This document shows positions 1-18,310 of a stretch of 64,000 bases of DNA, piece after piece (the stretch's first letter is position 1; each line of letters starts with the position of its first letter). Source of the DNA: an uncultured Clostridia bacterium (GTDB lineage: Bacteria; Bacillota; Clostridia; Christensenellales; UBA3700); assembly GCA_945872615.1 (NCBI GenBank), contig CAMBZZ010000001.1:1-64000 (forward strand), read 5' to 3'. A program made the translations under genes and the position numbers. The notes beneath the pieces were generated by a model that was not told the DNA's origin, did not search any database, and was given only the letters and a program-made list of their open reading frames with translations.

Positions 1-55
1 CGATTCATACGCCATTCTTTAACTTGTAATAGTGTCCATAAAAACAAACAGCAGT
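1..55 (+). mobile_element. Putative right end (attR-like) of a second, upstream integrative element of the same att family
   Basis: CGATTCATAC at 1-10, GTGTCCATAAA at 32-42 and GT at 54-55 have the same spacing as the right end of the downstream element (CGATTCATAC 15033, GTGTCCATAAA 15064, GT 15086). Recombinase coding sequence starts at the GT. Confidence 0.6.
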
Positions 56-262
56 TATTTATGCTAGGTACAGCAGCGATAGCCAAACCGAGCAGTCTAT
101 TGAAGGACAACTTCGCGTTTGTCAGGACTATGCCAAAAGCAATGACATACTAATCGTCGATACCTATATCGACCGAGCAATGACGGGAACGAACGATATG
201 CGCCCCGACTTTCAGCGTATGATAAAAGACAGCAACAAGCGTCAATGGGACTACGTTTTGGT
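54..262 (+). pseudogene. Serine recombinase, N-terminal catalytic fragment (VIYARYSSDSQTEQSIEGQLRVCQDYAKSND...DFQRMIKDSNKRQWDYVLV), interrupted by an element
   Basis: Translation of 54..262 gives the resolvase N-terminal motif YARYSSD. It joins in frame to the fragment at 15088 to restore DYVLVYKLDRFSR. Confidence 0.85.
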
Positions 263-284
263 TGTTACACATTTTTATGGACAC
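263..284 (+). repeat. Left terminal att arm TGTTACACATTTTTATGGACAC
   Basis: 19/22 identical to the reverse complement of the right arm at 15064..15085. Confidence 0.8.
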
Positions 285-403
285 TTTTTATTCAACAATA
301 CTACCGCCCGATTTATCGCCTTTCGTCTTCGTTTTGTAGCACAGTGAAAAGCGTAAGTCAACGGCAAAAATAATTGCTGAAAACATCCAAAATATATCAA
401 AAG

Positions 404-436
404 CCAAGGAAGATTATCTCAACCTTGGTTTTTTTT
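404..436 (+). terminator. Intrinsic terminator CCAAGG...CCTTGG-T8
   Basis: 6-bp stem followed by TTTTTTTT. Confidence 0.6.
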
Positions 437-592
437 ATTTTTCAAAAATGTATTTACAATTAACAACAACGCAATAATTTTTGCGTTTTCGTTGAATTCC
501 GTAATGCTAACATCAAAGCAAAATACATCTATCTTTTCCCGGTGCTACTTCCGTTTTTGCCGAAAGGCGGAATAAATCGGAGGTAAATAAGA

Positions 593-1213
593 ATGGAAAA
601 AGAAAAGAATGCTTTTAGCATTTTCAAAGAAGAAATCTCTCAAAACAACGTACTTGCTATGTCAGAGTTAATAGCAATGGCTGAAACGCGCTTTCTCATA
701 GGATATATGGGAAGCCCTATGCAGAAAATGCACGCAGATTTATATGTGGATATACTGCACAAAAATGAATTAGGATATGCATTCAGTGATAGTTACGACT
801 TAGTCCAAGAAGGTGCGTTGTACCTTTGCGAACATTACGGCAAACACTTGAATGACATAATAGGCTATTCAAAGAAAGGCAAGCCCATTACTATAGAGAT
901 TGCTTGTTGCAAGAAAATGATGAAGCTGATGAATCGAAAAACACGCGACAACTACCGAAACGTATGTTACGATGCTTTAACGCCCCTATACGACGAATTA
1001 CAAGAAGAGACGACACAAGACTATACCGTCTATGACAAAATCGTAGAAAACCTTAATTTGACGGAAAATATGCGCATTGCTTTGGAGTGTCGTATAAAAG
1101 GCTTGAGCTTTCCCGAAATAGGTAGGGTGCTTAATAGAGCACAATCCACCGTGTTCGAATACTTCATAAAAATGCGACAGAGGTATATGATGATTTATGA
1201 AAAAAGCCAGTAA
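593..1213 (+). CDS. Sigma-70-like / HTH RNA polymerase sigma-type regulator
   Basis: 206 aa; YDLVQEGALYLCEHYGKHLND and C-terminal HTH (LSFPEIGRVLNRAQSTVFEYFIKMRQRY). Paralog at 17693..18310. SD cggagg upstream. Confidence 0.65.
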   Translation: MEKEKNAFSIFKEEISQNNVLAMSELIAMAETRFLIGYMGSPMQKMHADLYVDILHKNELGYAFSDSYDLVQEGALYLCEHYGKHLNDIIGYSKKGKPITIEIACCKKMMKLMNRKTRDNYRNVCYDALTPLYDELQEETTQDYTVYDKIVENLNLTENMRIALECRIKGLSFPEIGRVLNRAQSTVFEYFIKMRQRYMMIYEKSQ

Positions 1214-1299
1214 CAAAAGTGATTTTATGAAATCGGCAAATAACACCCCAATAGGTGCTTGACATATAAGATACTATGTTATCGCATGTTATCTATTTA

Positions 1300-2040
1300 T
1301 TAAACAATAACGTTCTTATATATCTTTGCGTAATAATCGATCAATTCTTCATTGAGTTTTTCCGTCACGCACTTATACATAAATCGATTTCTTGCTTTTA
1401 TCATTCCATAAATAAAATTTCGATCTCCCCAAAGAGGACGCTCTATATCAATAGCACATTGTAATTTACCATGATTAAAAATGAAATTAGCCATGTTGCA
1501 ATCAGTTAAAACAAAGGCACTTTCAGTTAACTCCGGTACAATATCAAAATCTGCAAGCAACTCTGCTTTTAGTGCCGAATTGGTCTTGTCTATTAAAGAC
1601 TTTAAAAAGGAAGACCATGAGGTATGTTCCGATTTCCCGTATTTATCCATAAAGCCAAAAGCAGAAGATTTAATATGAGCTACTCGTTGAATGAAAGATA
1701 CAACCTGCGACAATATTGTTGTGTCGCAATCTTTATTATAAAATACTTGTCCGTCTTTTTTCTCTTCTTCTAAAACGACAAAGTCATCAATAAGTTCGCC
1801 CTTATCGTATATTTTATCTATTTTAACCACAGGGAAATTATTCTTGATTAGAATATCGTGCGAAAACTTTTCAATATAATAAGATTCGTCTATAGTTGGG
1901 TTATTATAGCTTGCTCGCGCAATTTTTATAATCTTATTCCCTTTGCTAAATATATAATGTTTCTCGCTATAATTGAAAGGCACATATCCCAGCGAGATCA
2001 AATTATTATAGTATGGTTCTTTTTGAGGTTCATTCTTCAT
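1300..2040 (-). CDS. Aminoglycoside phosphotransferase (APH)-like kinase
   Basis: LTDCNMANFIFNHGKLQCAIDIERPLWGD resembles the APH catalytic loop/metal motif. Likely start MKNEPQKE overlaps the upstream gene. Confidence 0.6.
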   Translation of the reverse strand: MKNEPQKEPYYNNLISLGYVPFNYSEKHYIFSKGNKIIKIARASYNNPTIDESYYIEKFSHDILIKNNFPVVKIDKIYDKGELIDDFVVLEEEKKDGQVFYNKDCDTTILSQVVSFIQRVAHIKSSAFGFMDKYGKSEHTSWSSFLKSLIDKTNSALKAELLADFDIVPELTESAFVLTDCNMANFIFNHGKLQCAIDIERPLWGDRNFIYGMIKARNRFMYKCVTEKLNEELIDYYAKIYKNVIV

Positions 2041-2794
2041 TTTTCTTATAAATTTTATTTTTATCCATAACACTCTGTAAAAGAGTGGTATCTACGCCGT
2101 GTTCGTTGCCTTGAGCTGTGATTGAGGCAATGTCCTTTGGTAAGCAACTACCGCCATAGCCTCGGTTTTCTTCATAAACAAATGTATGACTTGCACCAAT
2201 TCTTGGGTCTGCGATCCAGATCTCTCTGGCTAAATTATAGTCTGCTCCGAGAGATCGTGCTATATCATACATTTCATTACAGAAAGTCACCTTGGTTGCC
2301 AAGAATGCGTTCTCCATATATTTTGCCATTTCCACAGTCTTAGCATCGGCTTGATAAATGCGCACGTTAGAATTTATAACTGTTTGATATGTCTTAATAG
2401 CTAAATCTATGCCATTTTTAGTTCCGCCAAATGACAACCATGTTCTATCATTCAAATCAGCAAACGGATGAGCAACCGTTTCGCCATAATATTCTGGTTG
2501 AAAGACTATTTCTTTACCGATCTTTTTCATCATCTCATCGGTAAAGCCAACGTAAACGGTAGACCTTAAAACGATTAACGGCACATTTAACCAATTTAGC
2601 ACTTCTTCAACAATACTTGTATCGCAATGCCCATCTGCTCGCTGTGGAGTGGGAACACATACGAATACTGTATTACAACTGTTGATTTCCTCTTGTGAAC
2701 CTATATTAAGACATTTATCGTATAATATAGCATTTTTGAATAAATTGTGCATGGCTTTGCCAACATGTCCGTATCCAACAATTCCAATTTTCAT
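2030..2794 (-). CDS. UDP-glucose/GDP-mannose dehydrogenase-like protein, short (254 aa)
   Basis: N-terminal Rossmann motif GIVGYGHVGKA, VCVPTP, LRSTVYVG and catalytic-Cys motif GYGGSCLPKD; ends shortly after it. Confidence 0.75.
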   Translation of the reverse strand: MKIGIVGYGHVGKAMHNLFKNAILYDKCLNIGSQEEINSCNTVFVCVPTPQRADGHCDTSIVEEVLNWLNVPLIVLRSTVYVGFTDEMMKKIGKEIVFQPEYYGETVAHPFADLNDRTWLSFGGTKNGIDLAIKTYQTVINSNVRIYQADAKTVEMAKYMENAFLATKVTFCNEMYDIARSLGADYNLAREIWIADPRIGASHTFVYEENRGYGGSCLPKDIASITAQGNEHGVDTTLLQSVMDKNKIYKKNEE

Positions 2795-2798
2795 AATT

Positions 2799-3362
2799 TT
2801 ATCCTCTGTACTTTATTCCGTGATGATACCTTGTATAGATATCCAAATATTTTTCTAAAATTTCAATGGCTTGTTGAGGTGTTTCAACAGCATATACTTT
2901 ATCATCTACCGATTGATAGCGTTCTCTAGAATCCAACTTCCTTCCTGCGAGTTCGCTACTCCAACCATCCACATTGGTATAAGCGATTACCAATCTAAAA
3001 AGCGACCAGGCAAGCGCCATTTCGGAAAGCGTACCGCTTCCGCCACCAATAGCGATTACACCATCTGCACTGACAACCATTCCGTTTCTCATAACATCTA
3101 TGCCAGTAGGTACAATAATGTCGGCAAAATGGTTTGCATCTGTTCTATCAAAAGATGGGATAATCGCAATAGTATCGCCGTCTTGATATTTTGCAGAGGA
3201 TTTTGCACCTTGAAACACAGCCTCCATAACGCCACCCAAACCTCCGCTTTGAACTCTATATCCGGCATCTACAAGGGCTTTTCCTGTTTCAAATGCAAGC
3301 TTGTATTTTAAACCGTCTTTTTCTATTTTTCCGTCGCCAATTACGGCAATAATCTTTTTCAT
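2799..3362 (-). CDS. TIGR00725/LOG-family (SLOG superfamily) protein
   Basis: GGLGGVMEAVFQGAKS and AIGGGSGTLSEMALAWSL are LOG/TIGR00725-type motifs. Confidence 0.8.
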   Translation of the reverse strand: MKKIIAVIGDGKIEKDGLKYKLAFETGKALVDAGYRVQSGGLGGVMEAVFQGAKSSAKYQDGDTIAIIPSFDRTDANHFADIIVPTGIDVMRNGMVVSADGVIAIGGGSGTLSEMALAWSLFRLVIAYTNVDGWSSELAGRKLDSRERYQSVDDKVYAVETPQQAIEILEKYLDIYTRYHHGIKYRG

Positions 3363-5272
3363 ACGTTCTGCTCCTTAATTTTATATGTTTGAATAATTAA
3401 TATACCTTCCTCACGGGTATTTATGAGTTCAAAATCAACCGCCATTCCGCTTGATTTAATTTTACTGAAATCTGTTGTCGGTGTTTTAAAAAACACCAAT
3501 TCGTCCTTCTCCAAAGGGACATTATTTACACTCAAATTTTCGCCTTGAATTTTTATTAGCGTCAAACGATCAAAGTAAAATTTATTATCCGAAAACTGAT
3601 AGACTTTGGCAGGAATATTAAAATTAAATTTATCTATCGAGCAGGAAATAATGATGCGTTCCGTTTCGTTATCGATAATCGAACTATTTGCAGTTTTTAA
3701 TGCCCGATCGATGTCTGAACAACATTCTATTACCTTACCTCCATTACGTTGGAACAACGAAATAGATTGTTGAAAAATACGCTTATATTTTACACCGATT
3801 AAATTGTTTAAAATATGATAATGAAAATTTTTCCTTACATAATCAGCGCAATTTTTATTTTCCATTGAATCAAGATAGGCAATAAAATCATAAAACGTCG
3901 AAAAAACAAATGGCAAATCAAGATAATATCCTATCTCACGGCTATAGAAATAGTAGTCGTTCAACATTCCATAATGTGCGGCAAAATTTCTTAATACAAT
4001 AAGCCGTGACCCTAACTCGAGCGGGGCGTTTAGCTTGTTCAAAATCATAGACAATTTAGAATATGTATTATACACAGGTATTCCTAATTCAAATACAAAT
4101 TTCTCTTCAATATTTAGAAGTGCCTTTTGAACACCTTCACTTGCGCTTTTGTTAATTTCACGCATATCGGAAAAGTTTGCTCCGCAACAAAGGATCGTTA
4201 AGTTTTTATTTCTATAAAACTTAGGTTTATTTAGTTTAGAAAGCCTTTCCATATTCACATCTGAAATATCTTTTAACTCTGTTATATTGTTATGATAAAG
4301 ATATGCTACACCTAAAAACGGAGGGGCACTTTTACATATATCGCTAAATGTTTTTGTGTCATAGATTTTTAATACATAGTCCTTATCAAAATATTTTCCG
4401 ATATTACTTCCTTTATCAATAGTCATAATACACTTGTCCATCGTCATTTCAATTTGACCTGACACACAAAATCTTGGCGCTTTTACCCGTTCAGACAAAT
4501 CAAGCGAAAAACGCCGGGCGTTTTGATTTATCATTGTGATTTGAACGTCAGGATATATGAGTCCAAAGATGCTTTCAAGTAAATTCCCGTCATTATTTTT
4601 CTCTCGGATGTTCACTTCATAGTTATTCCGGAACGTATCGGTTAGGGCTTGTTCCAATGTGTTTCTGCGTTCATTTATGTCAGCACTTCCCATATTTCCC
4701 CACAGTGCTTTACCCCAAATATTCGCAAAATTGCAAATAAAAGATTTTGAATCCCTCTGTGATAAGACAGCGAGAACCATAATCAGCATTCCGGCAATCG
4801 TCAACTCACCATCCTTCACATAACAAATATCATCTGCAATCTTAGGGAAAGCCTGAATAAAAGACTCGTCAATGCGCATTGTATTGCTCAGGGGAGTTGA
4901 GATGAATGCGTGCAAATTGATATTTCTGAATCTTTCCAAAATCCAAGTATAATATGTGATACCATCCACAATTTTCTCGCTGCCATCGGCATTATAAATC
5001 GAATAGCAATTGTTTGCGAAACGTTCATAGAGAAAAGGGAATTGTTCTCGGAAAAGCCGTTGATCTATTCTTTCACTTTCCAAACTGATATCCGAAAAGT
5101 AAACATAGCGAAACCCACGTTCTATTTGAACGAGAGTAGCTGCCAACATTCCTTTTAAGTAAGACAAATCTTTCCCATTAACAAAATGCTTCTTGCTGTA
5201 ATATATTTGACTGATTGGAGCATTAAGAAACTCCAAAGAATGCAAATCATATATCGTTTTTTTAACACTCAT
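3359..5272 (-). CDS. Uncharacterised protein with two RNxxxH motifs (putative double-HEPN ribonuclease)
   Basis: FRNINLHAF (ORF residues 124-129) and LRNFAAHYG (436-441). Start MSVKKTIYDL has SD AAAGGAG; the ORF track extends 8 aa further. Confidence 0.5.
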   Translation of the reverse strand: MSVKKTIYDLHSLEFLNAPISQIYYSKKHFVNGKDLSYLKGMLAATLVQIERGFRYVYFSDISLESERIDQRLFREQFPFLYERFANNCYSIYNADGSEKIVDGITYYTWILERFRNINLHAFISTPLSNTMRIDESFIQAFPKIADDICYVKDGELTIAGMLIMVLAVLSQRDSKSFICNFANIWGKALWGNMGSADINERRNTLEQALTDTFRNNYEVNIREKNNDGNLLESIFGLIYPDVQITMINQNARRFSLDLSERVKAPRFCVSGQIEMTMDKCIMTIDKGSNIGKYFDKDYVLKIYDTKTFSDICKSAPPFLGVAYLYHNNITELKDISDVNMERLSKLNKPKFYRNKNLTILCCGANFSDMREINKSASEGVQKALLNIEEKFVFELGIPVYNTYSKLSMILNKLNAPLELGSRLIVLRNFAAHYGMLNDYYFYSREIGYYLDLPFVFSTFYDFIAYLDSMENKNCADYVRKNFHYHILNNLIGVKYKRIFQQSISLFQRNGGKVIECCSDIDRALKTANSSIIDNETERIIISCSIDKFNFNIPAKVYQFSDNKFYFDRLTLIKIQGENLSVNNVPLEKDELVFFKTPTTDFSKIKSSGMAVDFELINTREEGILIIQTYKIKEQNV

Positions 5273-8200
5273 GTTCTCGCTCCTTTGCTTTTTCAAGCAA
5301 AATATCTTTTATCTTTTGTTTATAAGTTTCGCTGTATTTCCCAACGCGATTAACATTATTCGTGCTTGGTTCAAAATAATACAATATATAAGGAATATAC
5401 ACATTCTTCTTTGATTTTGCTATCATAGGAAGCATTATAGCAAAATCTGTATTTACATCTACAAACAATCCATCTATTTTGAGATCGTTTTCAATATTAA
5501 TGAAGTCAAACAATTTCCGCTTGAAGCACTTTGGGTGCAACCAAATATTGTCGCCGCCGCGTTCCCAGACACGTTCAAAGGAGTATATTTTATAAGTTTT
5601 AAGAGGTTTGTCATAGCGTATGCAATTACCGCAAGTTATCTCCGCACCATTATGGAACTCATTTACGATTATCTCAATCGCTCGTCGATTCACAAGATAA
5701 TCGTCATTGTCCAGATTGATTACAATACAGTCAGGATTCAGAATAATATTTTGCATGACAAAAACAAAGTTTTCGAGTTCACCGACCTTAGTATCGTTGA
5801 ATACGGATATAACCGTTTTGCTCTTGAAATAATTGTCGTAACGTAAAATACAGTCCGCATAATCAGCACTCTCATTTTGCGAAGCGTCATCAACATAAAC
5901 GACGGAAAAATTCTGATAAGTTTGAACCTTTAGACTGTCAAACATTCTTTTTAGTCTTTCAGGAGGAGTATTATATCCCCGAATATAAACCACGACGTCT
6001 GCAGTTGTTGTCTGCAACCAATCTTTTTTGTCGCCCGTAAGATTCACTTGGTTGTATTGCATATCCGGGATTTGATTTTGTTCAACCCTTCTTTCCGCAT
6101 AGGAAATGAAATTGACTTCGTGTTTTTTGCGATTTTCAGGATGAATAAACCAAACATTCCTATCAGATAGACGAACACTGTCTTTTGGTTGCAAGCCTTT
6201 ATCCAATGCTCTGTGCCAAGGCGATTGGACGACGCCGTCTATCATTTGATTTTTGAGCGGAAGCATATTCTTCAACCTATCTAATGCCAAAAAACAAGTG
6301 CGGACTTCCGTTCTACAACCATAAATGGGATTGCTGTCTGCTTTTTTTGCAATAGAAAGCGATACGGTTACGGCACCGTTTTTCAGTGCGGTTAAACCAT
6401 CTATAAATCCATTCACATCTTCGTTATGATAAAGAATATCGCTGTCTGTCTGGAAAACATATTTCGTCTTAATGTTTTCAAAGCCGCAAAGAGTTGCGTA
6501 TAATCCTTGTCCGTTTGCGCAATGCCCCTCCGTGCTTTCTACACCAAAATATTTTATGTATAAGCTTTTAATTCTTTCGTCATCGGTTTCAGCATAGACA
6601 ATGTCGTCAATAAGCCCGTTTGACTTTGCCCGCTGCAATTCCGTCCGCAAAGTTTCTTCATCATCAAAATCATACCTTCTCACTCGTTCAGAAGTCCATG
6701 TTAAATCGGCGACAACTACTTTACGGACAAATCTACCGCCCTTTTCGAGGCTACCGACAATATGCGAAATATTTCGATAAACAGACCTATATTCCATAGG
6801 ATTGGTTTTAATCAATAAAGATAGATTATCAAAAACTTGCGACTCAGATATTTTTTTACAGTCGAATATTATATGTTCCGATATAGGCATGAGAGTGTCC
6901 AGATCCGCTCCGTCGCCTTCAACAATCTGTTCAACACGCAACCCATATTTGCTGAATAAATTTCTATAAAACTCTATCGGTCGATGATATTCTTTTCGAA
7001 TCTTGCTATTTTCCGCAGAGTGCTTTTCAAACACTTCGGAAATATGATAATTTCCCTGTAAACCCGTAGTTCTTAGTTCAGTGTTTTGAACACTATTAAA
7101 AAATGGATTGCAGACGCTTATTATTGCTCGTCCGTTCAATTTTAAAATTCTGACTATATTGCGTACTACTTCTTCCGCAATTTCGTTATCGATGCAACAA
7201 AGCACAAGATTACTTATCACCAAATCGTAATCCGCAGAGGGAATATCTTGGACAAGTTTATAAACAGTAACCGAAGGGTTTGCGCGTTTGATGACGGTGT
7301 CCAAATCGATATCGAAAACACTTACGTCGTAGTTTTCTGAAAGCGTATTTGCAATTTTACATTTTCCTGCACCATAGTCTAAGATTTTTTCGGGATGATA
7401 CTGTTTGACTAAGTTTATAATTTTCCCGTCATGTAAATCTTCTTTGTAGCGCTTATCGACTACCTTCTTAAATAACTCGCAACCATCGTCCAAATACAGA
7501 CTGTCACCTTGATAGTAGCGCTGTATTAACTGTTTAAAATCCTCATCGCTTAAAAAGGGATACCGCAACAGTTCATACGCCCTGTCGACTGACTTATCAT
7601 ATTTCTCTGTATCGAACGGCAAAAATGATTTCCCGTAATCGATCAGCTTCAATTTGCCGTTTGCCACAACAAAATTGCATGTCTTAATGTTGTCGAACAC
7701 GCAACCGTTTTTCTTTAAAAATCGTAAAAGGTCTATAAACTGCCGTATATGTCCGCCATGATAAGGTTTTGATTTTTCATAGGGATATCTGATAATATCA
7801 ATGCCGTCAACCTGAAAATACTTCAACGGATACAAGGCTTCACATTCTTCAAACGTTTGCCCGATTGTTTTAAGATAATTGAGATTTTTTAATGGTTTAT
7901 AGAAGTACTTATAGACATAAGCGCCGTCGGTAAATACTGCGCCTTCGCCGCCACTCCCCAATAATTTTAAAGCATCGTGTGATACTGAAAATTTCTTCTC
8001 TATTTTTGCCTTTATTTCGTTAATATTTAGCAATTGCGACTGAATATGCAGTTTGTAATTCAACGACTCAAAAGCACAGGCAACCTTATTAAACTCCAAA
8101 TATACGGAGGCTTCTTTGATAAAAGCCTGCAAATTTCCGTCTGAAAACAATTCAGAATATTTAAAGTCGTTTATAATAGAAAGCAACCCTTGAATCCTTC

Positions 8201-10112
8201 GGAAGGAAGCTACAAATCTTGCCAAACGTTCAACAAAATATCCTCTATAAAAGTCGTAAAAATCTTCTTTTTTTGCATCAACGCCGACCTGCTCAATGGC
8301 TTTTGTAAAGGAAGATCCGATTAAATCCAACAACAACTTATTCTCTTCCTTTTGCATATTAAAAGGACTATTCCGTCGATTGTGAAGAGTTGCAAAAGGA
8401 GCATTTACGATTTTATACCCTGCGATTTTTGTTTGTAATACCCAAAAATAATCGCTGCGCCGTCCTATCTTATCTCCTATTTGAATAGACCAATTAGGAA
8501 TATTTAAAAGTTCACGATTGAAGATTAGCGTATTACCACCACGGCTTTTTACTTCTTTTATCCGCATGTCTTGCAAAAACAATGGACGGCTGTATGCTTT
8601 ACCTCCAAACACATCGTCAAGATTACAGTTTTTTCTTAGAGCAATAGGTGTTTCCAAATGCGTTTCGCCGTAATCTGTCAAATCATAATAATAATCGGTC
8701 TTATCTGAAAGCGTGTCTATTTCCCCAATGCTTGCAGTTTTATTATATACATAGTCCAACAATGCCGTTCGAATCGTAGAAAGAGTAGGTAAAGGCGCGT
8801 CCAAGGAATAGTTTCCGACAACTGCATCATAGCAGTCTTTATAAGTCTCAATTACGTTATCTATATTGAGTGGCACGTTTTCGATATTTCCATTCCGTGA
8901 GACAAGCTCTTTTAGTTCCATATCTTCGTCTAATATCCAAATGATGTCTCCGTCTTTTGTAAATTGATAAAGATACTTTTGCAAAATAGTACGGGCAATT
9001 GCAATATCTTGTATAACGTCACCTTGCAATTTATCTCTAGTGACAAACTGATCGAAATCGCCTTTTTCAATACGTGCAAGCACTCTGTTTTTATCTATGA
9101 TTTCATAATAATACCCGCTTGCCTTGAGCAAAGCCATATAAGGATATCTATCTTCGGTAAAATTTATAAAAATGACAATCTTGGTGTTATAGCGACGCAA
9201 TGCTATCAACTGTTCCAAAAGTCGTAAGCCTAACTTGTATTCGGTTACGATAAATCCGATTGTTAAATTCCCATTATAGTTTTTTGTTGTGCTTTTATCC
9301 CCAAAAAACAGTTCCTCTTTTCTCTCTACAGTTTCAATCGCCGTCCTGTCCACGTCAAACAGTTTTTTTGCACGCTCAAAAAAACCTTTTTTCACGTCAT
9401 CTGACATATATCCGTTGTATTTATAATAGAATTTTCTGAGTCCTTCTGTTTTTTTTGCTTTCCCGTTTGTAATACGTTCACGGTCGTTATAGGCATTTAC
9501 TTCCACAAAATACTCGTTTAATACAGCATAAGTGGGGCGCAACAACATAATTCGGGTAAATATATCTCTATCGGTTGTTGAACTCATATTTTCGTCAAAT
9601 AATCCGGCCTTGAGCAATATATCAAGTTTAACAAATGTATTTGAACCTTGAATATGCGGGTTTCCTTTCAAAAAACTGTCAACGGAAAGAATTTGCGGGA
9701 TAGAAAGCCGTTTCGCACCATCTTCGTTACGATAAATCAAACCGCTGACTAAAAAATCTTTTCCACGAATCGATTTTTCAGCTTCCTCCAAATACGTATT
9801 TAACCAAATATCATCATCATCTAAAAAAGCGATGTATATGTTCTTATAGTCTTTTTGCAAAAACAAATTCTTTTGCAGAATAAAATGAATAGCGGTATTT
9901 AAGGACCCCGCATAATTGTGGGCATTTTTATTATTGAGAATAGTCGCTCCCGAATTTTTAATCAGCCGTTTTTCTATAGCTTTATTTTCATCCGTCGAAT
10001 CAGTAACAACAATAATCTCATCCGCCTGACGTGTTTGAGACAGCACGGATTTCAATGCTTTTGCAAATAATTCCGTCCTATTTTTCGTTGTAATAATCGC
10101 GATAATTTCCAT
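5262..10112 (-). CDS. 1616-aa fusion: GT2-like domains plus kinase-like and SAM-methyltransferase-like domains
   Basis: GT2 (IIAIITTKNRTELF...AFLDDDDIW), second GT-like (IIWILDEDMEL...GRRSDYFWVLQTK), kinase-like (LLGSGGEGAVF...KLIDYGKS), methyltransferase (KILDYGAGKCKIANTL), GT-like (VFQTDSDILYH), GT2 (NFSVVYVDDASQNES...INLDNDDYL). Confidence 0.8.
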   Translation of the reverse strand: MEIIAIITTKNRTELFAKALKSVLSQTRQADEIIVVTDSTDENKAIEKRLIKNSGATILNNKNAHNYAGSLNTAIHFILQKNLFLQKDYKNIYIAFLDDDDIWLNTYLEEAEKSIRGKDFLVSGLIYRNEDGAKRLSIPQILSVDSFLKGNPHIQGSNTFVKLDILLKAGLFDENMSSTTDRDIFTRIMLLRPTYAVLNEYFVEVNAYNDRERITNGKAKKTEGLRKFYYKYNGYMSDDVKKGFFERAKKLFDVDRTAIETVERKEELFFGDKSTTKNYNGNLTIGFIVTEYKLGLRLLEQLIALRRYNTKIVIFINFTEDRYPYMALLKASGYYYEIIDKNRVLARIEKGDFDQFVTRDKLQGDVIQDIAIARTILQKYLYQFTKDGDIIWILDEDMELKELVSRNGNIENVPLNIDNVIETYKDCYDAVVGNYSLDAPLPTLSTIRTALLDYVYNKTASIGEIDTLSDKTDYYYDLTDYGETHLETPIALRKNCNLDDVFGGKAYSRPLFLQDMRIKEVKSRGGNTLIFNRELLNIPNWSIQIGDKIGRRSDYFWVLQTKIAGYKIVNAPFATLHNRRNSPFNMQKEENKLLLDLIGSSFTKAIEQVGVDAKKEDFYDFYRGYFVERLARFVASFRRIQGLLSIINDFKYSELFSDGNLQAFIKEASVYLEFNKVACAFESLNYKLHIQSQLLNINEIKAKIEKKFSVSHDALKLLGSGGEGAVFTDGAYVYKYFYKPLKNLNYLKTIGQTFEECEALYPLKYFQVDGIDIIRYPYEKSKPYHGGHIRQFIDLLRFLKKNGCVFDNIKTCNFVVANGKLKLIDYGKSFLPFDTEKYDKSVDRAYELLRYPFLSDEDFKQLIQRYYQGDSLYLDDGCELFKKVVDKRYKEDLHDGKIINLVKQYHPEKILDYGAGKCKIANTLSENYDVSVFDIDLDTVIKRANPSVTVYKLVQDIPSADYDLVISNLVLCCIDNEIAEEVVRNIVRILKLNGRAIISVCNPFFNSVQNTELRTTGLQGNYHISEVFEKHSAENSKIRKEYHRPIEFYRNLFSKYGLRVEQIVEGDGADLDTLMPISEHIIFDCKKISESQVFDNLSLLIKTNPMEYRSVYRNISHIVGSLEKGGRFVRKVVVADLTWTSERVRRYDFDDEETLRTELQRAKSNGLIDDIVYAETDDERIKSLYIKYFGVESTEGHCANGQGLYATLCGFENIKTKYVFQTDSDILYHNEDVNGFIDGLTALKNGAVTVSLSIAKKADSNPIYGCRTEVRTCFLALDRLKNMLPLKNQMIDGVVQSPWHRALDKGLQPKDSVRLSDRNVWFIHPENRKKHEVNFISYAERRVEQNQIPDMQYNQVNLTGDKKDWLQTTTADVVVYIRGYNTPPERLKRMFDSLKVQTYQNFSVVYVDDASQNESADYADCILRYDNYFKSKTVISVFNDTKVGELENFVFVMQNIILNPDCIVINLDNDDYLVNRRAIEIIVNEFHNGAEITCGNCIRYDKPLKTYKIYSFERVWERGGDNIWLHPKCFKRKLFDFINIENDLKIDGLFVDVNTDFAIMLPMIAKSKKNVYIPYILYYFEPSTNNVNRVGKYSETYKQKIKDILLEKAKEREHEC

Positions 10113-10943
10113 TTATTTTTGTTCCCCCACGGTAATATCCTTTGCGTATTTCGTGTCGCCGTCACAATAATTACAAGCGATGGACAACTTTCCGCCATAC
10201 ATTTTTTCCAACTGCTGTCTCAATTGTTTTTTTGGAAGAAAAACCGATATCCCATCATCAGGAATATATCCCAATTTTGTCATAATTGCAGCTCTTGAAC
10301 ACACATAAATCTTACCATCGTAGAAAGATGTGCATCGTTTAATGCTACAATCGTCAAACCTATTGCTGTCACGCAATGTTATTTCGCCAAAATCCTTCCA
10401 GGTTTGATCCTCAAGATATATATACCGTACGCCGAATTCCTTAAATTTATCTATCAATTGTTGCGTTTTTGTATTCGGTAATCTATAATTGCTGATTTGC
10501 ACTACAATTTTACTGCTTGCAATTAACTGCAAAATATTATTAGCCGGAATAATTGTTCCGTTTGTTGTTAATCGTATCGATTTAATTTTTGGTTGATTGT
10601 TTACGTAAGCAATAAATTCGGTCAATCTTGGGTGAAGAAATACTTCTCCACCGTGAATTTTAAGACGATAAAGACTATCTATCTTGGACAACAACTCATT
10701 CAACCAATCAATCAAAGTTGAGATTTCATAGTTTTGTCTGCTATTTATCGCTGGAATTAAATTTGAGCAATGCTTACAACGTAGATTGCATTTAGTTGTA
10801 ATAAACATTTCCAAATAAGGCATTTCAAACTTTCTCTGTACAACTTGGCGAAACCAAATCTGAAAAGACAACAGAAACCTTGAGGTTTTTTTGTTTTCCT
10901 TTTGACAATAATGCAGGCATTCTTTACGATTAATAAGCTTCAT
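10113..10943 (-). CDS. Radical SAM protein
   Basis: CNLRCKHC (CxxxCxxC) and HGGEVFLHP; C-terminal Cys cluster CNYC. Likely start MKLINRKE; the ORF-track start lies inside a hairpin. Confidence 0.8.
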   Translation of the reverse strand: MKLINRKECLHYCQKENKKTSRFLLSFQIWFRQVVQRKFEMPYLEMFITTKCNLRCKHCSNLIPAINSRQNYEISTLIDWLNELLSKIDSLYRLKIHGGEVFLHPRLTEFIAYVNNQPKIKSIRLTTNGTIIPANNILQLIASSKIVVQISNYRLPNTKTQQLIDKFKEFGVRYIYLEDQTWKDFGEITLRDSNRFDDCSIKRCTSFYDGKIYVCSRAAIMTKLGYIPDDGISVFLPKKQLRQQLEKMYGGKLSIACNYCDGDTKYAKDITVGEQK

Positions 10944-10960
10944 ATTTCCCCAAAAAACAA

Positions 10961-10991
10961 AAATCCTCGACTTTATCATCGAGGTTTTTTT
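10961..10991. terminator. Hairpin CCTCGA-N8-TCGAGG flanked by T/A runs (terminator or attenuator)
   Basis: Perfect 6-bp stem. T7 on the + strand; ATTTTTGTTTTTT follows on the - strand just before the operon start. Confidence 0.6.
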
Positions 10992-11460
10992 ATTCGACGA
11001 TAAAATTACATAATCAGAATTTCTTTATGCTGACCTATTGATGCGTCCTAGCATCTGAAAGCCATTTAGGTTTTATCTATTTTATTTATATCACAAATGA
11101 CGATGTAGGTCAAGTTCTTGAATAAATACCAAAATATGTTCAATAAAATCATTGAACACTGATATGAAATACAAATGAAAATTGCAAACGAACAAAAAGA
11201 ATAAAATTTTTGAAAAGTAAAAACAAAATTAGATCTTGCAATAGAAAATATCTTGACCGCAGGTGAAAAAAGCGAGAGTTCAACCAAATAGATAAATAAA
11301 AAGGCGTAATACCAAAAAAATATTACTAACCACAAAGCTATAAACACTAAAATATTATAAAATACTGCGAGCGGCAATTAAAGATGAAAACGAGACATTT
11401 ATTAGCATATGTTGGAATATTCTATGCGATTAATAAAACAATCTTTAAATGGCACTTTCA

Positions 11461-11512
11461 CGGGTGCTTGACATATACAAGCGCGGAGCAAAGCTCCGCG
11501 GTCAAGCACCCG
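11461..11512. repeat. Large inverted repeat/cruciform
   Basis: CGGGTGCTTGAC (11461-11472) pairs with GTCAAGCACCCG (11501-11512); inner CGCGGAGC-aaa-GCTCCGCG. Confidence 0.85.
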
Positions 11513-11555
11513 CCAAAACAACTCACTTCAACTCAGATAAAAAGGTCAACTCAAA

Positions 11556-11630
11556 GCCGAGCGGATCGGGGCGTTCGCCGCTAAACCGCTTTGCGAATCG
11601 CCCCGTAAAACCGCAGTCGGCATTTTTTGA
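11556..11630 (+). ncRNA. Multi-stem structured region ending in a T-run (candidate structured RNA or single-strand origin)
   Basis: GCCGA...TCGGC closing stem followed by ATTTTTT; internal stem CGGGGCGttCGC...GCGaatCGCCCCG. Confidence 0.45.
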
Positions 11631-12019
11631 GTTTTGCTCCTTTTTAATTTCTGAGTTTTTTTCGTTTAGTGTTGTTTCGGACGGCGTGTTTTTCACGTCG
11701 TTCTTTTTTGTTTCAACGCATCACAAATTGGCCCTTTTTTTGTCACACGAGTGTTCTGGTATCCATTTATTCATAATGGTATTTTTATGTTGCTTCTTAA
11801 AAACCCAATTTATTTTTTTAATTCGGACAAAAGCTGTCGTAATTAAAAGTTAATCTATAGGCAGGAATAATTTTTAATTGTCGCAAAACCTGCAACAGTT
11901 GGTATGTATTATTTTCTCAAACACAAATTATTTGAAGAAAAAATACAACATAAAAGTTTCGTCACGTTTCAAAATCTGCAACGTGAGCCATGTAGATTAA
12001 GGGCAAACAGAAAAATATT

Positions 12020-12052
12020 TTTCAAAGTCGCAAAGAACTTGCGAGTTTGAAA
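12020..12052. repeat. Inverted repeat upstream of rep
   Basis: TTTCAAAGTCGCAA-agaac-TTGCGAGTTTGAAA, one mismatch. Confidence 0.75.
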
Positions 12053-12084
12053 GATACAATCTCAATCAAAAAAGGAGGAAAACA

Positions 12085-12999
12085 ATGAACAACCAAGATA
12101 TGAAAATCTACTTTGACGGCAGTCACTACATAGGAATCCCCAAAGGGGCGTTCCCAAGTAAAAAAGGACGAAAAAGACGTGTCGTCAAACCAATGCAACA
12201 AACGCAAAAAGAACAGACGGTTGAAACACCACCCGAAAGCACAAAAGAACGCTTTGAAAAGGCATATAAGGAAAGTCAATCTCTACCAAAGAAAGAACGC
12301 AAAGCCCATATAAAAGAGAAATTGAAAGACCATTTTGATAGCAAAGAAGAATTGAACGCTTTTGTGGATGAAAACGTAGAAAGAGCAAAGACCAACGCAA
12401 TAAAACGCAAGGTACGGCTTATGCGTAAACTACGGCTGCAAGATTGGGACTATTTTTGCACTTTTACCTACTCGGACGACCTTCACACCGAAGAGTCTTT
12501 CCGCAAGAAGCTATCCAACACACTCAAACACCTTGTGGCAAGAAATGGTTGGAAGTACGTAGGAGTTTGGGAGCGTGGCAATGAAACAAACAGACTACAT
12601 TTCCACGGAATATTCCATATCCCAAAGATGATTGGAGAGTTGGAAAAAATAAAGGACTACGATACACGCAACCACCGTATGCAAACCACCTACCAAAACA
12701 CCCACTTTCTCAAACATTTTGGCAGAAACGACTTCAAAGATATAGCCACACAAGATGACGTTGCCGATGCGGCGAAGTATATAACTAAATATATGGAAAA
12801 GTCCGGAGAAAGACTTGTATATGGTGGCAAATTACCAACCTATTTTCTTTCGGACGTGTTGGACGAAGACGTAGCTTGTCCTTACGGAGTGGACGATAGA
12901 AAAGTATTGCTATTCGACAACTTCACTTGTATGAACGAAGGTGAAATACTTGGAAAAGTAAGCAAAGAAGTCATAGACCAGTTGCCTAAGAGCAACTAA
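12085..12999 (+). CDS. HUH rolling-circle replication initiator (Rep) protein
   Basis: CTFTYSDD, RLHFHGIFHI (HUH) and AAKYITKYMEKSG motifs; SD aaaggagg upstream. Confidence 0.8.
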   Translation: MNNQDMKIYFDGSHYIGIPKGAFPSKKGRKRRVVKPMQQTQKEQTVETPPESTKERFEKAYKESQSLPKKERKAHIKEKLKDHFDSKEELNAFVDENVERAKTNAIKRKVRLMRKLRLQDWDYFCTFTYSDDLHTEESFRKKLSNTLKHLVARNGWKYVGVWERGNETNRLHFHGIFHIPKMIGELEKIKDYDTRNHRMQTTYQNTHFLKHFGRNDFKDIATQDDVADAAKYITKYMEKSGERLVYGGKLPTYFLSDVLDEDVACPYGVDDRKVLLFDNFTCMNEGEILGKVSKEVIDQLPKSN

Positions 13000-13039
13000 A
13001 ATAAATCGTCTTTCGTATCGGGAGCGTAAACGAAAACGT

Positions 13040-13089
13040 CTTGTCCGTCAAGGGTAAAGTGCATTGTTTCACAACCCTTGACGAACAAG
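13040..13089. repeat. Strong inverted repeat between rep and the next ORF
   Basis: CTTGTCCGTCAAGGGT (13040-13055) against ACCCTTGACGAACAAG (13074-13089): 15/16 paired, 18-nt loop. Confidence 0.85.
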
Positions 13090-13187
13090 AGTTAAGCAAT
13101 AAAAGAACACAACTTCGACCGTTGTCGTTTATCTCGTTCCCGTCGAAAGACAAACCGAAAACAAAAAATAAAAAGGAGGAAAAACAC

Positions 13188-13391
13188 ATGGAAACAAGCG
13201 TTAAGAAAGTATTTATCGAAAATGCAGAAGACTTCGAGAATTGTTATTTCTTTTCTCCGTCTATCGGCAAAAAGAAAAATATAGACGGCAAAACCTATCA
13301 CGTTAAAAGATATTTCAACGGTGATAGAGATTTTGAAACATCAATGAAAAAGTTTGCAACAAACAATTATTACAAGAAAGGAGAAAAATAG
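13188..13391 (+). CDS. Small 67-aa protein preceding the integrase (TnpW-like or accessory factor, tentative)
   Basis: Good SD aaaaggagg before METSVKK; position and size resemble small ORFs upstream of TnpX-type integrases. Confidence 0.5.
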   Translation: METSVKKVFIENAEDFENCYFFSPSIGKKKNIDGKTYHVKRYFNGDRDFETSMKKFATNNYYKKGEK

Positions 13392-13392
13392 A

Positions 13393-15009
13393 ATGAAACA
13401 GAAAAAATATGTAGCGGGACTTTATTTTAGATTGTCCCAAGAAGATGAGAGGCAAGGCGAATCGGCATCTATCGACAACCAAAGAACGATACTACGTAAA
13501 TACGCCGAAGAACGTGGTTTTGAAATTCACGGCGAGTATATAGACGACGGTATCTCAGGCACAACGTTTCAACGCCCCGAAGTACAACGACTTTTGGACG
13601 ATGCCAAAACGGGAGTCATAAACACGATTATCGTCAAAGACTTATCTCGTTTTGGAAGAAACTACATAGAAGTCGGACAATACATCGACTATGTATTCCC
13701 TGCTTTTGGTATACGCTTCATCGCTATTCAAGATAACGTAGATACGGAAAATCGAGATAGTGGCACAATGGAAATGATGCCTATTATGAACGTTTTCAAC
13801 GAATGGCACGCGGCAAATACGAGTAAGAAGATTCGTGCGGTATGGAAAGCGAAAGCCAATGAAGGTGTATTTCACGGCAAGAAAGCTTGTTACGGCTATA
13901 TTAAGTCAACAAATAATAAAGGTACGTTTATGATAGATGAAGAAGTTGCTCCTATCGTTGTGCGGATTTTTGAAATGTACGCTTCGGGAATCAGTCCGAA
14001 AAGAATATCCGAGATACTAAACGAAGAAAATATTCCTTGTCCCGGACAGTATGCCTTTGAGAAACTCGGTCATAAAGGTAAAACGGGTGATCGCAGGCTA
14101 TGGGGACAGATGACGATTGCTTCGATGTTGAAAAATATGGAATATATCGGACATATGCCACAGTTAAGGTCTACTTCAATTTCCTACAAAAACCATAAGC
14201 GTTACAATAAGGACCAAAGCGAATGGGTTATCGTTCATAATACTCATCCGGCGATTATCTCTCAGGATTTATGGGATAAGGTTCGCGAAAGAGAAAAGTC
14301 CGTTGCACAAGGCAGGAAAACTGCTACAGGATACACTCATCCTTTGTCCGGCTTTCTTTTCTGTGCCGATTGCGGTTGCAAAATGAAGCTGAACAGTGTT
14401 GGAAATAATAAATATGCATTTAATTGCGGCGACCATATGCGTTTTGGCAAAGCAATATGCTTCTCCCATCATATATCTGCAAAGACACTCGAAAAAATAA
14501 TTCTTGACGATATACGTGAGATGGCACAAAGAATCGTCCTCGACGAAAAAACTATTCGCGAAGAGTTTATACATCATAATGCCGAACTTGCCGACACGAC
14601 GATAAAGAAAACCCAAAAGGAATTACAAGCAAAGCAAAAACGTACGGAAGAATTATCTCGCTTGATGCAACTTGCCTACGAGGATAAACTGAAAGGCAAA
14701 ATGCCTGAAGATATTTGTATAAGCTTTATACAAAAATACTCCGAAGAACAAAAAAGACTTGAAACCGAAATATCTACGTTAGAAACCAAGTTGACCGAGG
14801 CTAATAACACAAAACAAAGTGCGGACGATTTTATATGCAACATAAAAAAATATCTCGAAGCTCCTGAACTAACACGTGAAATGTGCTACGAACTAATAGA
14901 ACGCGTAGTGGTCGGCGGACTGCCAAAAATAACGGGCAAAGAACGTGAAATAGATATTGTATACAAAGTGGATATTGCTTCCGTTTTACGTCATAAACTC
15001 AAAAAATAA
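13393..15009 (+). CDS. Large serine recombinase (TnpX/TndX-like site-specific integrase)
   Basis: YVAGLYFRLSQEDERQGESASIDNQ...DDGISGTTFQRP...VKDLSRFGRNYIEVGQYID, recombinase domain, CADCGCKM zinc ribbon and C-terminal coiled coil. Confidence 0.95.
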   Translation: MKQKKYVAGLYFRLSQEDERQGESASIDNQRTILRKYAEERGFEIHGEYIDDGISGTTFQRPEVQRLLDDAKTGVINTIIVKDLSRFGRNYIEVGQYIDYVFPAFGIRFIAIQDNVDTENRDSGTMEMMPIMNVFNEWHAANTSKKIRAVWKAKANEGVFHGKKACYGYIKSTNNKGTFMIDEEVAPIVVRIFEMYASGISPKRISEILNEENIPCPGQYAFEKLGHKGKTGDRRLWGQMTIASMLKNMEYIGHMPQLRSTSISYKNHKRYNKDQSEWVIVHNTHPAIISQDLWDKVREREKSVAQGRKTATGYTHPLSGFLFCADCGCKMKLNSVGNNKYAFNCGDHMRFGKAICFSHHISAKTLEKIILDDIREMAQRIVLDEKTIREEFIHHNAELADTTIKKTQKELQAKQKRTEELSRLMQLAYEDKLKGKMPEDICISFIQKYSEEQKRLETEISTLETKLTEANNTKQSADDFICNIKKYLEAPELTREMCYELIERVVVGGLPKITGKEREIDIVYKVDIASVLRHKLKK

Positions 15010-15013
15010 ATGA

Positions 15014-15050
15014 AAAAGTGTATGCTTAATTACGATTCATACACTTTTCT
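15014..15050 (+). terminator. Terminator after the integrase, overlapping the att right arm
   Basis: AAAAGTGTATG-N13-CATACACTTTT, 11-bp perfect stem. Confidence 0.7.
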
Positions 15051-15063
15051 ATTGATATTCATA

Positions 15064-15085
15064 GTGTCCATAAATATATGTTACA
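15064..15085 (+). repeat. Right terminal att arm GTGTCCATAAATATATGTTACA
   Basis: Inverted relative to 263..284 (19/22); followed by the GT core. Confidence 0.8.
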
Positions 15086-15087
15086 GT

Positions 15088-16402
15088 GTACAAGTTAGAC
15101 CGTTTCTCACGAGATAAATATGAAACGACTATCCACAAACACACCTTGAAAGAAAATGGTGTCAAATTATTGTCTGCTATGGAGAACATACCGGATAGCC
15201 CCGAAGGGATTATTCTTGAAAGTTTGCTTGAAGGTATGAACCAATACTATTCGGCGGAACTTTCTCAAAAAGTACACCGCGGCTTGAACGAAAGCTACCG
15301 CAAAGGACAGTATACCGGCGGTGCGGTTATCTACGGATATGACGTTGTGGATAAGAAAAACGTTATCAACCCTGAAGAAGCCGAGATTATTAAGGAGATA
15401 TTCACCAAGTATTCGCAAGGATACACTGCAACGGCTTTGGCGAAAGATTTACAAGCTCGCGGCATACGAACAAAAAAGGGCAAGTATATTACCGATAAAC
15501 AAATCTACAAAATTCTTGCCAACACCAAATACAACGGAAAAATACGGCACGGCGATACCGTTTACGACAATATCTATCCAAAAATCATCGATGACGTAAC
15601 GTGGCAGAAAGTTCAGGACATTCACGGAGAGAACAAACACGCTCCCGGTCGCAAGAAGGAGATCTTTGATTTCATCCTTTCAGGAAAACTGTATTGCGGA
15701 GATTGCCACCGTCTTATGGTTGGCGAAAGCGGAACAAGCAAACTCGGCAGGATTTATTACTATTATTCTTGTCTCGCAAAACGGCGTAAGCAACACCCTT
15801 GCAAATTGAAGTCGGTAGACAAACAGTGGCTTGAAGATATAGTTATAAATTCTACGTGGACTTTGCTTGCGGACAAAAGCATTGTAAGATACATAGCCGA
15901 AACTCTTTGCAAGATGCACGAAGAAGAAAGCAAGAAGAATACGAAAATTAAAAGTCTTGAAGCGCAACGACAAAACGCATTGAAAGCGTCTAACAACCTG
16001 ATATCCGCTATTGAGCAAGGCATTATTACCGAGCAAACGAAAATCCGCTTGAAAGAACTTGAAGCAAAGATAGCAGGACTTGACTTCGATATTGAACAAG
16101 AAAAACAGCGCTGTTATACGTTCCTTGACGCCGACAAGATAGAGAGTTACTTAAACTCCGTAATTTGCGGAGATATACAGGAAATGCCCGTGCGAAAACT
16201 GATTGTAAAAACCTTTGTAAGAGAAGTCATATTAGATAACGACAGTGTAACGATTACCTACAACTTTACCGAAACACCCACAAAGTACAAAATAACGCCG
16301 GAAACCCTACAGCAAATAAAAAGGCAGTCCGTAAAAAAGACTGCCAATAATAAAACTCTGTGTTCAAACAAGCTCCCTTCGCTTCCGCCAAGTGAAACCT
16401 AA
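15088..16402 (+). pseudogene. Serine recombinase, C-terminal fragment of the interrupted target gene
   Basis: YKLDRFSRDKYETTIHKHTLKENGVKLLSAMENIPDSPEG...GKLYCGDCHRLM...; continues the 54..262 fragment in frame. Confidence 0.85.
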
Positions 16403-16434
16403 ATCGAATACGAAAGTATTTGGTTTAGGTTTTT
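16394..16434 (+). terminator. Terminator of the interrupted recombinase
   Basis: AAACCTAAA-tcg-AATAC-gaaa-GTATT-tgg-TTTAGGTTTTT. Confidence 0.75.
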
Positions 16435-16717
16435 CTTTTGCAAAAAATAAGGTTTTATCTGCGTTTTTCGGTTGTCGGCGTCCTGCCGTTTTGGTCTTTT
16501 CGGGGTTCGTATGGGTGTGTTCGTATCCATTTTGCCGTATCATATTTTGTGCAGACAGAAAAATTCATTGACAAAACACTTTTTGTATGGTATTATACAT
16601 TTATCCGAAAGAAAGGGTTAGTTTCCTCAAAGTAATTGAGTAATGTAATCTGTTTACGCTTTTCTTTGCAAGCGGAAAAGTTTAAGTGGAAAATCTTACA
16701 ATAATTGTTTTGATAAA

Positions 16718-16788
16718 ATGAGACCTATCGTTAGGAGTAGTCTATCGCGCCAGAGGTGGACTCTCTTTGTCGGAGAGGTCTTTTTTGT
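16718..16788 (+). promoter_or_regulatory. Structured leader upstream of the RNase III gene
   Basis: gagaCCTAtcgtTAGG...CGCCagaGGTG...CTCTCtttgtcgGAGAGgtcTTTTTT; ends like a terminator/attenuator. Confidence 0.5.
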
Positions 16789-16826
16789 TTCCTTCGGATA
16801 AATATCATATTTTTGGAGGTATCAAA

Positions 16827-17657
16827 ATGAAAATGCAAAATCTTAACGAACATCTCGATGAGGTGCAAGAAAAAATCGATTACTATTTTAATAATACCGA
16901 TTTACTCTTGCAAGCATTTACGAGAAGTTCTTATTCTACCCAATATGGTGGAGAAAACAACGAAGTTCTTGAATTTATCGGTGATACAGTTCTCGATTTT
17001 TATGTTGTAAAAACAATCGTCGATGAATTCGGGTTTATGAAATCTCAATCGGAGTATTATGACAAAGACAACGATAATGAAGAATTCTGTATCGTAGCCC
17101 ACAAAAACGAGTCGGATTTTACTGAAATTAAGAAAGAAATCGTTTCAAATAAAACGCTTGCAAAAAGAATCGATTACTTTGGTTTCGCTAAATTTATGTA
17201 TTTGGGCGACAGTGACATTGATAATAATGTAGTAACACAGGAAAAAGTTAAGGCGGATTTATTCGAGGCTATTTTAGGAGCAATTGCAATAGACAGTGAC
17301 TGGAATGCCGATGAAATTCAAAATTCCGTTTCAACCATGCTCAATATCGATAAGTTTTTGGCAAATATCGATACTACAGAAGAACGACCTGAAAAGTTTA
17401 AGGAAGAAAACGCCGTAACTACGTTAAAAGAACTTGCGGAACACGGAATTTGCACTAAGCCCGAATATGATTTGAGCGACGGACAAGTGGAACAAAACGG
17501 TCGTTTATGGTGGGCTTGCACTTGCACTGTTAGAAGTTGGAGCATTCAAAAAACATGGCTTGCCGATTCTAAAAAAGCAGCAAAAAGATATGCTGCCTAT
17601 TTAGTCCTTTGCGAACACTACCAATTACCCGACGAATTTGTCGAGGATAACGAGTAA
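16827..17657 (+). CDS. Ribonuclease III family protein with dsRNA-binding domain (divergent)
   Basis: NNEVLEFIGDTVLDFYVVK signature, EAILGAIAIDSDW and C-terminal KKAAKRYAAYLVL dsRBD; SD ggaggt upstream of MKMQNLNE. Confidence 0.85.
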   Translation: MKMQNLNEHLDEVQEKIDYYFNNTDLLLQAFTRSSYSTQYGGENNEVLEFIGDTVLDFYVVKTIVDEFGFMKSQSEYYDKDNDNEEFCIVAHKNESDFTEIKKEIVSNKTLAKRIDYFGFAKFMYLGDSDIDNNVVTQEKVKADLFEAILGAIAIDSDWNADEIQNSVSTMLNIDKFLANIDTTEERPEKFKEENAVTTLKELAEHGICTKPEYDLSDGQVEQNGRLWWACTCTVRSWSIQKTWLADSKKAAKRYAAYLVLCEHYQLPDEFVEDNE

Positions 17658-17680
17658 ACACTATTCATAAATAATTTGAA

Positions 17681-17718
17681 TATGGCTACCTACTATTGCA
17701 AGGTAGCCATATATTTTT
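17681..17718. terminator. Convergent terminator
   Basis: TATGGCTACCT-N9-AGGTAGCCATA followed by a T-run. Confidence 0.75.
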
Positions 17719-18310
17719 TACGAATACTGTTTTGTCTGCGCCATATTGTCGTGCGGTTGACGTTCAAAATCCGCCCTATTTGTAGCATTGTAAATCCCGC
17801 CATTAGAATAGAAAGCGTTTCGTATTCTACAGCGGTTAATTTCATCTTCGCTACAATCCCGTCAAAGGCGGTATAATCGTTCTTTTGTTCGTCGTCGAGC
17901 GTTGTTTCAGGCTCGGTCATAATCTGCTCGTTAAGGCTTGTTGTATTCAGCATAGGGCTTACAAAGTTTTTAGCCAAGTATCTGTCGCCTACGCTGAAAC
18001 ATGCCTGTTTAATAGTAATTTTTCTGCCCGTTTTGGTGTAGTAAACGTCATTAAGCCTTTTGCCCATATGTTGGCAAAGGAACAACATTGCTTCTTGCGC
18101 AATATCGTAACCGTCTGAAAAACGGCTCATATCGTCATTGGTATGTTTTATATCTTTTAATAATCCCTTGTAGAGATTATGCAAATCTTTACTGCCACGG
18201 ACTATTACCGTTTTAATAGCACACAAGGCAATCACTTCGCCCATACGTTGCACATTTTCTACCGAGATAACTTTGTCGTTATCTAAAATACCTTTTTGAA
18301 ACTCTTTCAT
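17693..18310 (-). CDS. Sigma-70-like / HTH regulator, paralog of 593..1213
   Basis: SDGYDIAQEAMLFLCQHMGKRLND and C-terminal HTH MLQIGRILNVNRTTIWRRQNSIRKKY; same leader and SD as the first copy. Confidence 0.65.
   Translation of the reverse strand: MKEFQKGILDNDKVISVENVQRMGEVIALCAIKTVIVRGSKDLHNLYKGLLKDIKHTNDDMSRFSDGYDIAQEAMLFLCQHMGKRLNDVYYTKTGRKITIKQACFSVGDRYLAKNFVSPMLNTTSLNEQIMTEPETTLDDEQKNDYTAFDGIVAKMKLTAVEYETLSILMAGFTMLQIGRILNVNRTTIWRRQNSIRKKYMATLQ

Follow-up and report, generated by a model that had tools for sequence, protein, structure and literature searches.

Enzymes that assemble several sugars are usually classed with surface glycans, and HEPN RNases with immunity. The window analysed here, a 64,000-nucleotide stretch of contig CAMBZZ010000001.1 from an uncultured Clostridia bacterium, carries an operon in which a large sugar-handling enzyme lies next to a putative HEPN protein. 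An operon that is conserved, moves horizontally and combines both kinds of gene, with no gene for export, fits neither class, and no description of this six-gene combination was found in the open-access literature.

Gene content of the operon

Read 5' to 3' on the minus strand, the operon encodes a radical SAM enzyme, a 1616-aa multi-module protein (the giant), a 645-aa protein, a LOG-type protein, a short UDP-glucose-dehydrogenase-like enzyme (UGD) and an APH-like kinase (Table 1). The six reading frames, with the overlapping or abutting junctions given in a first-pass annotation of this DNA, were all confirmed by an ORF check. The radical SAM gene starts at an ATG at 10943 that is common to its homologues, and the 645-aa gene has, besides the ATG start, an alternative TTG at 5296.

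The radical SAM protein matched Pfam Radical_SAM (1.8e-9), the giant matched Glycos_transf_2 in two stretches (3e-26) together with Methyltransf_11, the LOG-type protein matched LDcluster4 (3.7e-29) and TIGR00725 (score above the family cut-off), and the short UGD matched the UDPG_MGDP_dh central domain (2.9e-24) and the N-terminal domain. The 645-aa and APH-like proteins had no Pfam or NCBIfam match. Comparison of the operon proteins with PADLOC models gave weak partial matches only, such as that of pVip to the radical SAM core. No strong hydrophobic or transmembrane segment was seen in any operon protein, and no membrane, lipid-carrier or export gene lies within the operon.

Table 1. Features of the operon and of the insertion that carries it (window positions)
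Feature	Position	Strand	Basis or remarks
Radical SAM enzyme, C-terminal twitch/SPASM-like Cys cluster	10113-10943	minus	Pfam/NCBIfam
1616-aa giant	5262-10112	minus	GT2, GT-A-like, kinase-like, methyltransferase, GT-A-like, GT2
Giant module 1, GT2	9333-10112	minus	residues 1-260; LDDDD; Pfam Glycos_transf_2
Giant module 2, putatively GT-A-like	8148-9266	minus	residues 283-655; DE/DDDM motif
Giant module 3, kinase-like	7473-8015	minus	residues 700-880; GxGxEG, K735, N808, D825-Y-G
Giant module 4, class I methyltransferase	6933-7460	minus	residues 885-1060
Giant module 5, putatively GT-A-like	6033-6800	minus	residues 1105-1360; TDSD
Giant module 6, GT2	5283-6020	minus	residues 1365-1610; DNDD
645-aa putative double-HEPN protein	3359-5272	minus	637 aa from ATG; motif conservation
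HEPN motif 1, R124-N-I-N-L-H129	4910-4927	minus	invariant in 7 homologues; shuffle test
HEPN motif 2, R436-N-F-A-A-H441	3974-3991	minus	RN and H invariant in 7 homologues
LOG/SLOG-cluster-4 protein	2799-3362	minus	TIGR00725 family; Pfam/NCBIfam
Short UGD	2030-2794	minus	NAD and central domains
APH-like kinase, accessory	1300-2040	minus	DCNMAN and DIE motifs; no Pfam match
Mobile insertion (14.8 kb) carrying the operon	263-15085		inverted ends, interrupted recombinase
N-terminal piece of interrupted resident serine recombinase	50-262	plus	translation VIYARYSSDSQTEQSIEGQLRVCQDYAKSND...
C-terminal piece of same	15086-16402	plus	first half of resolvase domain missing
Second large serine recombinase, right end of insertion	13354-15009	plus	
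Sigma-region-4-like/HTH protein within insertion	593-1213	plus	weak HTH_38, Sigma70_r4_2
REP_ORF2-G2P (HUH-type replication/transfer) protein	12085-12999	plus	
15-bp direct repeat, operon 3' side	1254-1268	plus	GGTGCTTGACATATA
15-bp direct repeat, operon 5' side	11463-11477	plus	begins apparent hairpin-bearing terminus of multicopy Rep element

The mobile insertion

The proposal made at first pass that the operon is cargo on a serine-integrase element is supported. A large serine recombinase, inverted ends (263-285 and 15063-15085) and an interrupted target are all present, and they bound the element at about 263-15085. The resident serine-recombinase gene is split, with ...RQWDYVLV ending at about 262 and YKLDRFSR... 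resuming at 15086; when the flanks are joined, a single open frame is restored from about 50 to 16402. Its C-terminal piece matched Pfam Recombinase and Zn_ribbon_recom, and Resolvase only from profile position 70.

Inside the insertion, exact copies of a 15-bp direct repeat (at 1254 and 11463) flank the operon, and four of the five genomic copies of this repeat begin a conserved GC-rich hairpin (Rep elements at C1, C23 and C28; a solo copy on C3). The repeat with its hairpin (1254-1268, 11463-11515) looks like the terminus of the HUH-type Rep element, which occurs several times in this genome and may mobilise the operon. A Rep relic also lies directly after the operon in genome G191.

Distribution and horizontal transfer

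Of 396 genomes from this order, seven carry the 645-aa family, seven the giant family and five both, a co-occurrence with a Fisher p of 5.5e-9 when relatedness is ignored. The two genes are adjacent in all five genomes having both, and the 645-aa gene adjoins the giant in five of the six intact giant loci. The co-occurrence elsewhere on which the first-pass annotation had made its interpretation depend is thus real, and it does not lie inside capsule loci. Outside the order, two class-level samples (391 and 240 genomes) and a sample of 399 genomes from the phylum yielded no additional members. A phage origin was rejected: phage records held no homologue of either protein, and viral contigs held no 645-aa homologue and only 25-34% matches of the giant, to its first GT2 module.

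The full six-gene order is present in the window, G126 and G264, representing three families of one order; the G126 operon, in which the contig end cuts the APH gene, is the same as that on public contig L003. Five genes, without APH, were found in G029, and four, without LOG and APH, in G191. The G266 locus comprises only the giant and UGD, and a degraded giant fragment remains in G001, which belongs to the window's genus. UGD accompanies the giant in each of the six intact loci. G191 and G266 lack the LOG gene, and the APH-like gene is restricted to the window, G126 and G264. These gene contents suggest a core of giant and UGD to which the radical SAM and 645-aa genes, then LOG and then APH would have been added.

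Since G266 keeps the giant and UGD without the HEPN gene, the glycan module is independent of the latter. In G163 and G305 the 645-aa gene occurs without any sugar gene, beside a coiled-coil protein of 269 or 273 aa (70% mutual identity) and a membrane protein; the HEPN protein is therefore separable from the glycan module. In this pair the HEPN family has another, hitherto undescribed set of partners, and the occurrence of the pair in place of sugar genes is an effector-like module exchange. At L015:9594-13487 and L017:11835-15145, a 645-family gene stands with a conserved coiled-coil protein (NAHKHKGE motif) and a membrane protein.

The window and G126 operons share 87% DNA identity over 9.46 kb, whereas G126 belongs to another family and its RpoB identity to the window genome is about 62%, so the block has moved horizontally. 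For G029, from the window's own family, RpoB identity is 72% but operon protein identity is 43-74%. Sequence comparison thus indicates that the six-gene block moves between distantly related gut bacteria. Between the window and its nearest copy (G126), dN/dS is 0.15 for the radical SAM gene, 0.12 for the giant, 0.17 for the 645-aa gene, 0.09 for LOG, 0.05 for UGD and 0.20 for the partial APH gene, so that purifying selection acts on every one of the six. These values, the same order in three families and the invariant HEPN motifs show that the operon is not a chance assembly. The suggestion that the six genes act as a unit is also supported by conserved order, joint transfer and overlapping junctions.

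The 645-aa protein

Two RNxxxH motifs are common to the seven homologues of this protein, which are 32-82% identical to the window member, and H129 and H441 are the sole invariant histidines. In 200,000 column shuffles, one invariant RNxxxH motif arose in 0.03% and two in none. HEPN RNases have a conserved acidic residue upstream of the Rx4-6H motif, typically within Ex3[KR] (PMC3710099). Upstream of motif 1, E59xxxR63 is invariant in the seven homologues; E397, ahead of motif 2, is also invariant but without the [KR]. The protein therefore has the Rx4-6H arrangement with a polar residue after the arginine and an upstream acidic residue. The earlier double-HEPN call is supported by the invariance of both motifs, and the protein is very probably a double-HEPN protein, as judged from motif and conservation rather than from fold or activity.

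AlphaFold2, given two input sequences only, predicted helices around both motifs at low confidence (pLDDT 31 for the protein and 45 for the second HEPN region). A PDB profile search with the family alignment gave no match, HEPN and defence profiles gave none at a meaningful E-value, and hhalign of the two HEPN halves did not detect an internal duplication.

The presence of two RNxxxH motifs in one chain is shared with Cas13 (PMC3710099, PMC12165695), and the second motif, LRNFxAHxxxLN, resembles the RNxCAH motif of AbiF. Profile comparison with AbiF aligned the motif region only (single-pair E 0.004), and Abi_2 (PF07751) matched none of the seven family members, so that the protein is not a detectable AbiF. 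A Cas13-like, guide-RNA reading was rejected, with no CRISPR array in window positions 1-20000 and no Rfam match, such as abiF RNA, in 1-24000. Compared with AbiF/AbiD, Swt1 and Cas13, the protein further differs in having no significant profile match to them, in its extra middle and C-terminal beta-rich regions and in its partners. The family would thus be an undescribed double-HEPN family with no Pfam or PDB relative and with two exchangeable partner sets.

The giant and its partner enzymes

Methyltransferase module 4 of the giant matched Methyltransf_11 (1.3e-5) and PDB 3g5l (7.8e-5), and module 6 contains the second Glycos_transf_2 stretch, a match to PDB 5hea over residues 1385-1421 and a conserved motif. 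Modules 2 and 5, each with a conserved motif, gave 29% and 27% matches to giants of Pseudoalteromonas and Salinivibrio, respectively; the DXD-type motifs and these partial matches to plasmid multi-module glycosyltransferases suggest that both are GT-A-like. The related enzymes sit on plasmids, that of Salinivibrio together with a radical SAM gene. On the Pseudoalteromonas plasmid (L005:11986-18508), a multi-module glycosyltransferase with a kinase-like domain is followed by a GTP cyclohydrolase II-NADAR fusion, an AsnB-like protein and an arylamine N-acetyltransferase. This gene set, inserted among conjugation genes, is possibly an unexplored biosynthetic cassette.

The kinase noted at first pass holds as a kinase-like core with the glycine loop, the lysine and the DFG-type Asp-Gly (DYG; DIG in one sequence), but N808 replaces the HRD aspartate in all eight sequences compared. 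The domain may therefore lack classical kinase activity; the combination of HRD and DFG aspartates typical of WbdD-type kinases is absent from the giant. Matches to TTK kinase were weak and reflect the kinase-like core only.

The dehydrogenase call likewise stands for the NAD-binding and central domains, with the catalytic GGSCLPKD and AKYMENAFLATK and the catalytic Cys, Lys and Asn all kept, but at 254 aa the protein is short, and the C-terminal UDP-binding domain is absent. UGDs of about 259 aa that also lack this domain lie directly after a glycosyltransferase gene in Microbacterium phages (Ariadne gp93/gp94); the phage pairs differ in having a single small glycosyltransferase and no methyltransferase, kinase or HEPN gene. 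The LOG-type protein belongs to the TIGR00725/SLOG-cluster-4 branch. Its R92 and E114, the LOG catalytic pair, are invariant, but GGGSGTLSE replaces the PGGxGTxxE of LOG (PGG to GGG), and the gene is an accessory here. It had been taken as a pointer to a nucleotide-linked system; this is weakened, since a generic family missing from G191 and G266 is an accessory rather than a signature of nucleotide signalling.

Possible functions

Conservation, joint transfer and separability argue for two modules, one glycan-building and one a HEPN effector. We tentatively favour, at something short of an even chance, an uncharacterised mobile cassette in which a cytosolic glycan-building module and a HEPN RNase effector are coupled in a conflict system. 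We infer that the first module, whose core is the giant and short UGD and to which the radical SAM enzyme, LOG and the APH-like kinase would have been added in turn, would build a methylated glycan of several sugars, probably bearing uronic acid, on a cytosolic acceptor, and that the double-HEPN protein would cut RNA when its HEPN halves come together as a pair. Both modules would be made together via their overlapping genes, and the product or modification made by the first might control the RNase or mark its targets. The most likely purpose would be conflict inside the cell, either against phages or in the manner of a toxin-antitoxin pair. The operon thereby offers a defined test case for complex intracellular glycans in bacterial conflict with phages or plasmids. 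It is very unlikely, but conceivable, that the first module decorates the cell's own RNA or nucleobases with a methylated uronic-acid glycan and that the HEPN protein cuts undecorated phage RNA, which would amount to a glycan-based RNA restriction-modification with RNA or a nucleic-acid component as its target.

Clear defence genes were found within 10 kb at two of the nine family-bearing loci, namely type I restriction-modification and TIR genes in G191 and AbiE in G264; a GmrSD gene lies alongside the degraded G001 copy. Control stretches of the same genomes also match PADLOC models, so these neighbours, which are not clearly commoner at the family loci, are not counted as proof.

The operon might instead be a mobile island for modifying surface or secreted glycans, in which the giant acts as polymerase and capping enzyme for a glycan, UGD supplies uronic acid, host machinery exports the product and the HEPN protein is a regulator or an unrelated passenger; we consider this doubtful. 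The closest architectural precedent of the giant is indeed the O-antigen polymerase-terminators WbdD, WbbB and Klebsiella O7 ORF6, in which glycosyltransferase modules share a polypeptide or complex with a kinase and a methyltransferase (PMC3482155, PMC11231755), and the minimal locus, giant plus UGD, and the Salinivibrio enzyme beside a radical SAM gene would also suit such an island. However, polymerase-terminators work with membrane exporters, and no copy of the operon encodes a priming transferase, flippase/polymerase, ABC exporter or membrane protein. The giant further differs in its four GT-like modules, in having no recognised coiled-coil ruler, in the Asn found for the HRD Asp in all copies and in its HEPN gene partner, which it has in all but one of the intact loci.

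Improbable, in our view, is a specialised-metabolite cluster for a nucleoside or sugar antibiotic. LOG would then free a base, the radical SAM enzyme and UGD remodel the sugar and the giant glycosylate it, with the APH-like and HEPN proteins serving self-protection or regulation. A LOG-type phosphoribohydrolase does supply adenine in angustmycin synthesis, the short UGD has its nearest plasmid homologue in a Kitasatospora cluster with aminotransferases, ACP and AMP-binding enzymes, and RibA-NADAR, AsnB-like and NAT genes come after a Pseudoalteromonas giant. Against this, exporter and dedicated resistance genes are lacking, LOG and APH are missing from several copies and a HEPN gene is atypical of such clusters. 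Nor is it probable that the glycan module and HEPN effector are unrelated cargo sharing an operon for transfer and expression only: each is found without the other, but the internal position of the HEPN gene, with overlapping coding ends, is constant in loci that are only 32-45% identical.

Other features of the window

Two similar sigma-like/HTH proteins (593-1213 and 17693-18364) lie in inverted orientation, one inside the insertion and one beyond it, with inverted repeats at 531-603/18303-18375 and 311-370/18477-18536. An RNase III-domain protein (16767-17657) is encoded just outside the insertion, adjoining the broken serine recombinase. A 626-aa HD/dGTPase-like protein (20966-22846), possibly defence-related, is encoded where the GC content drops to about 25%, much lower than nearby, and this stretch is a probable recent acquisition. 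Further along, 38356-58929 holds three very large consecutive minus-strand ORFs of 2378, 1839 and 2629 aa.
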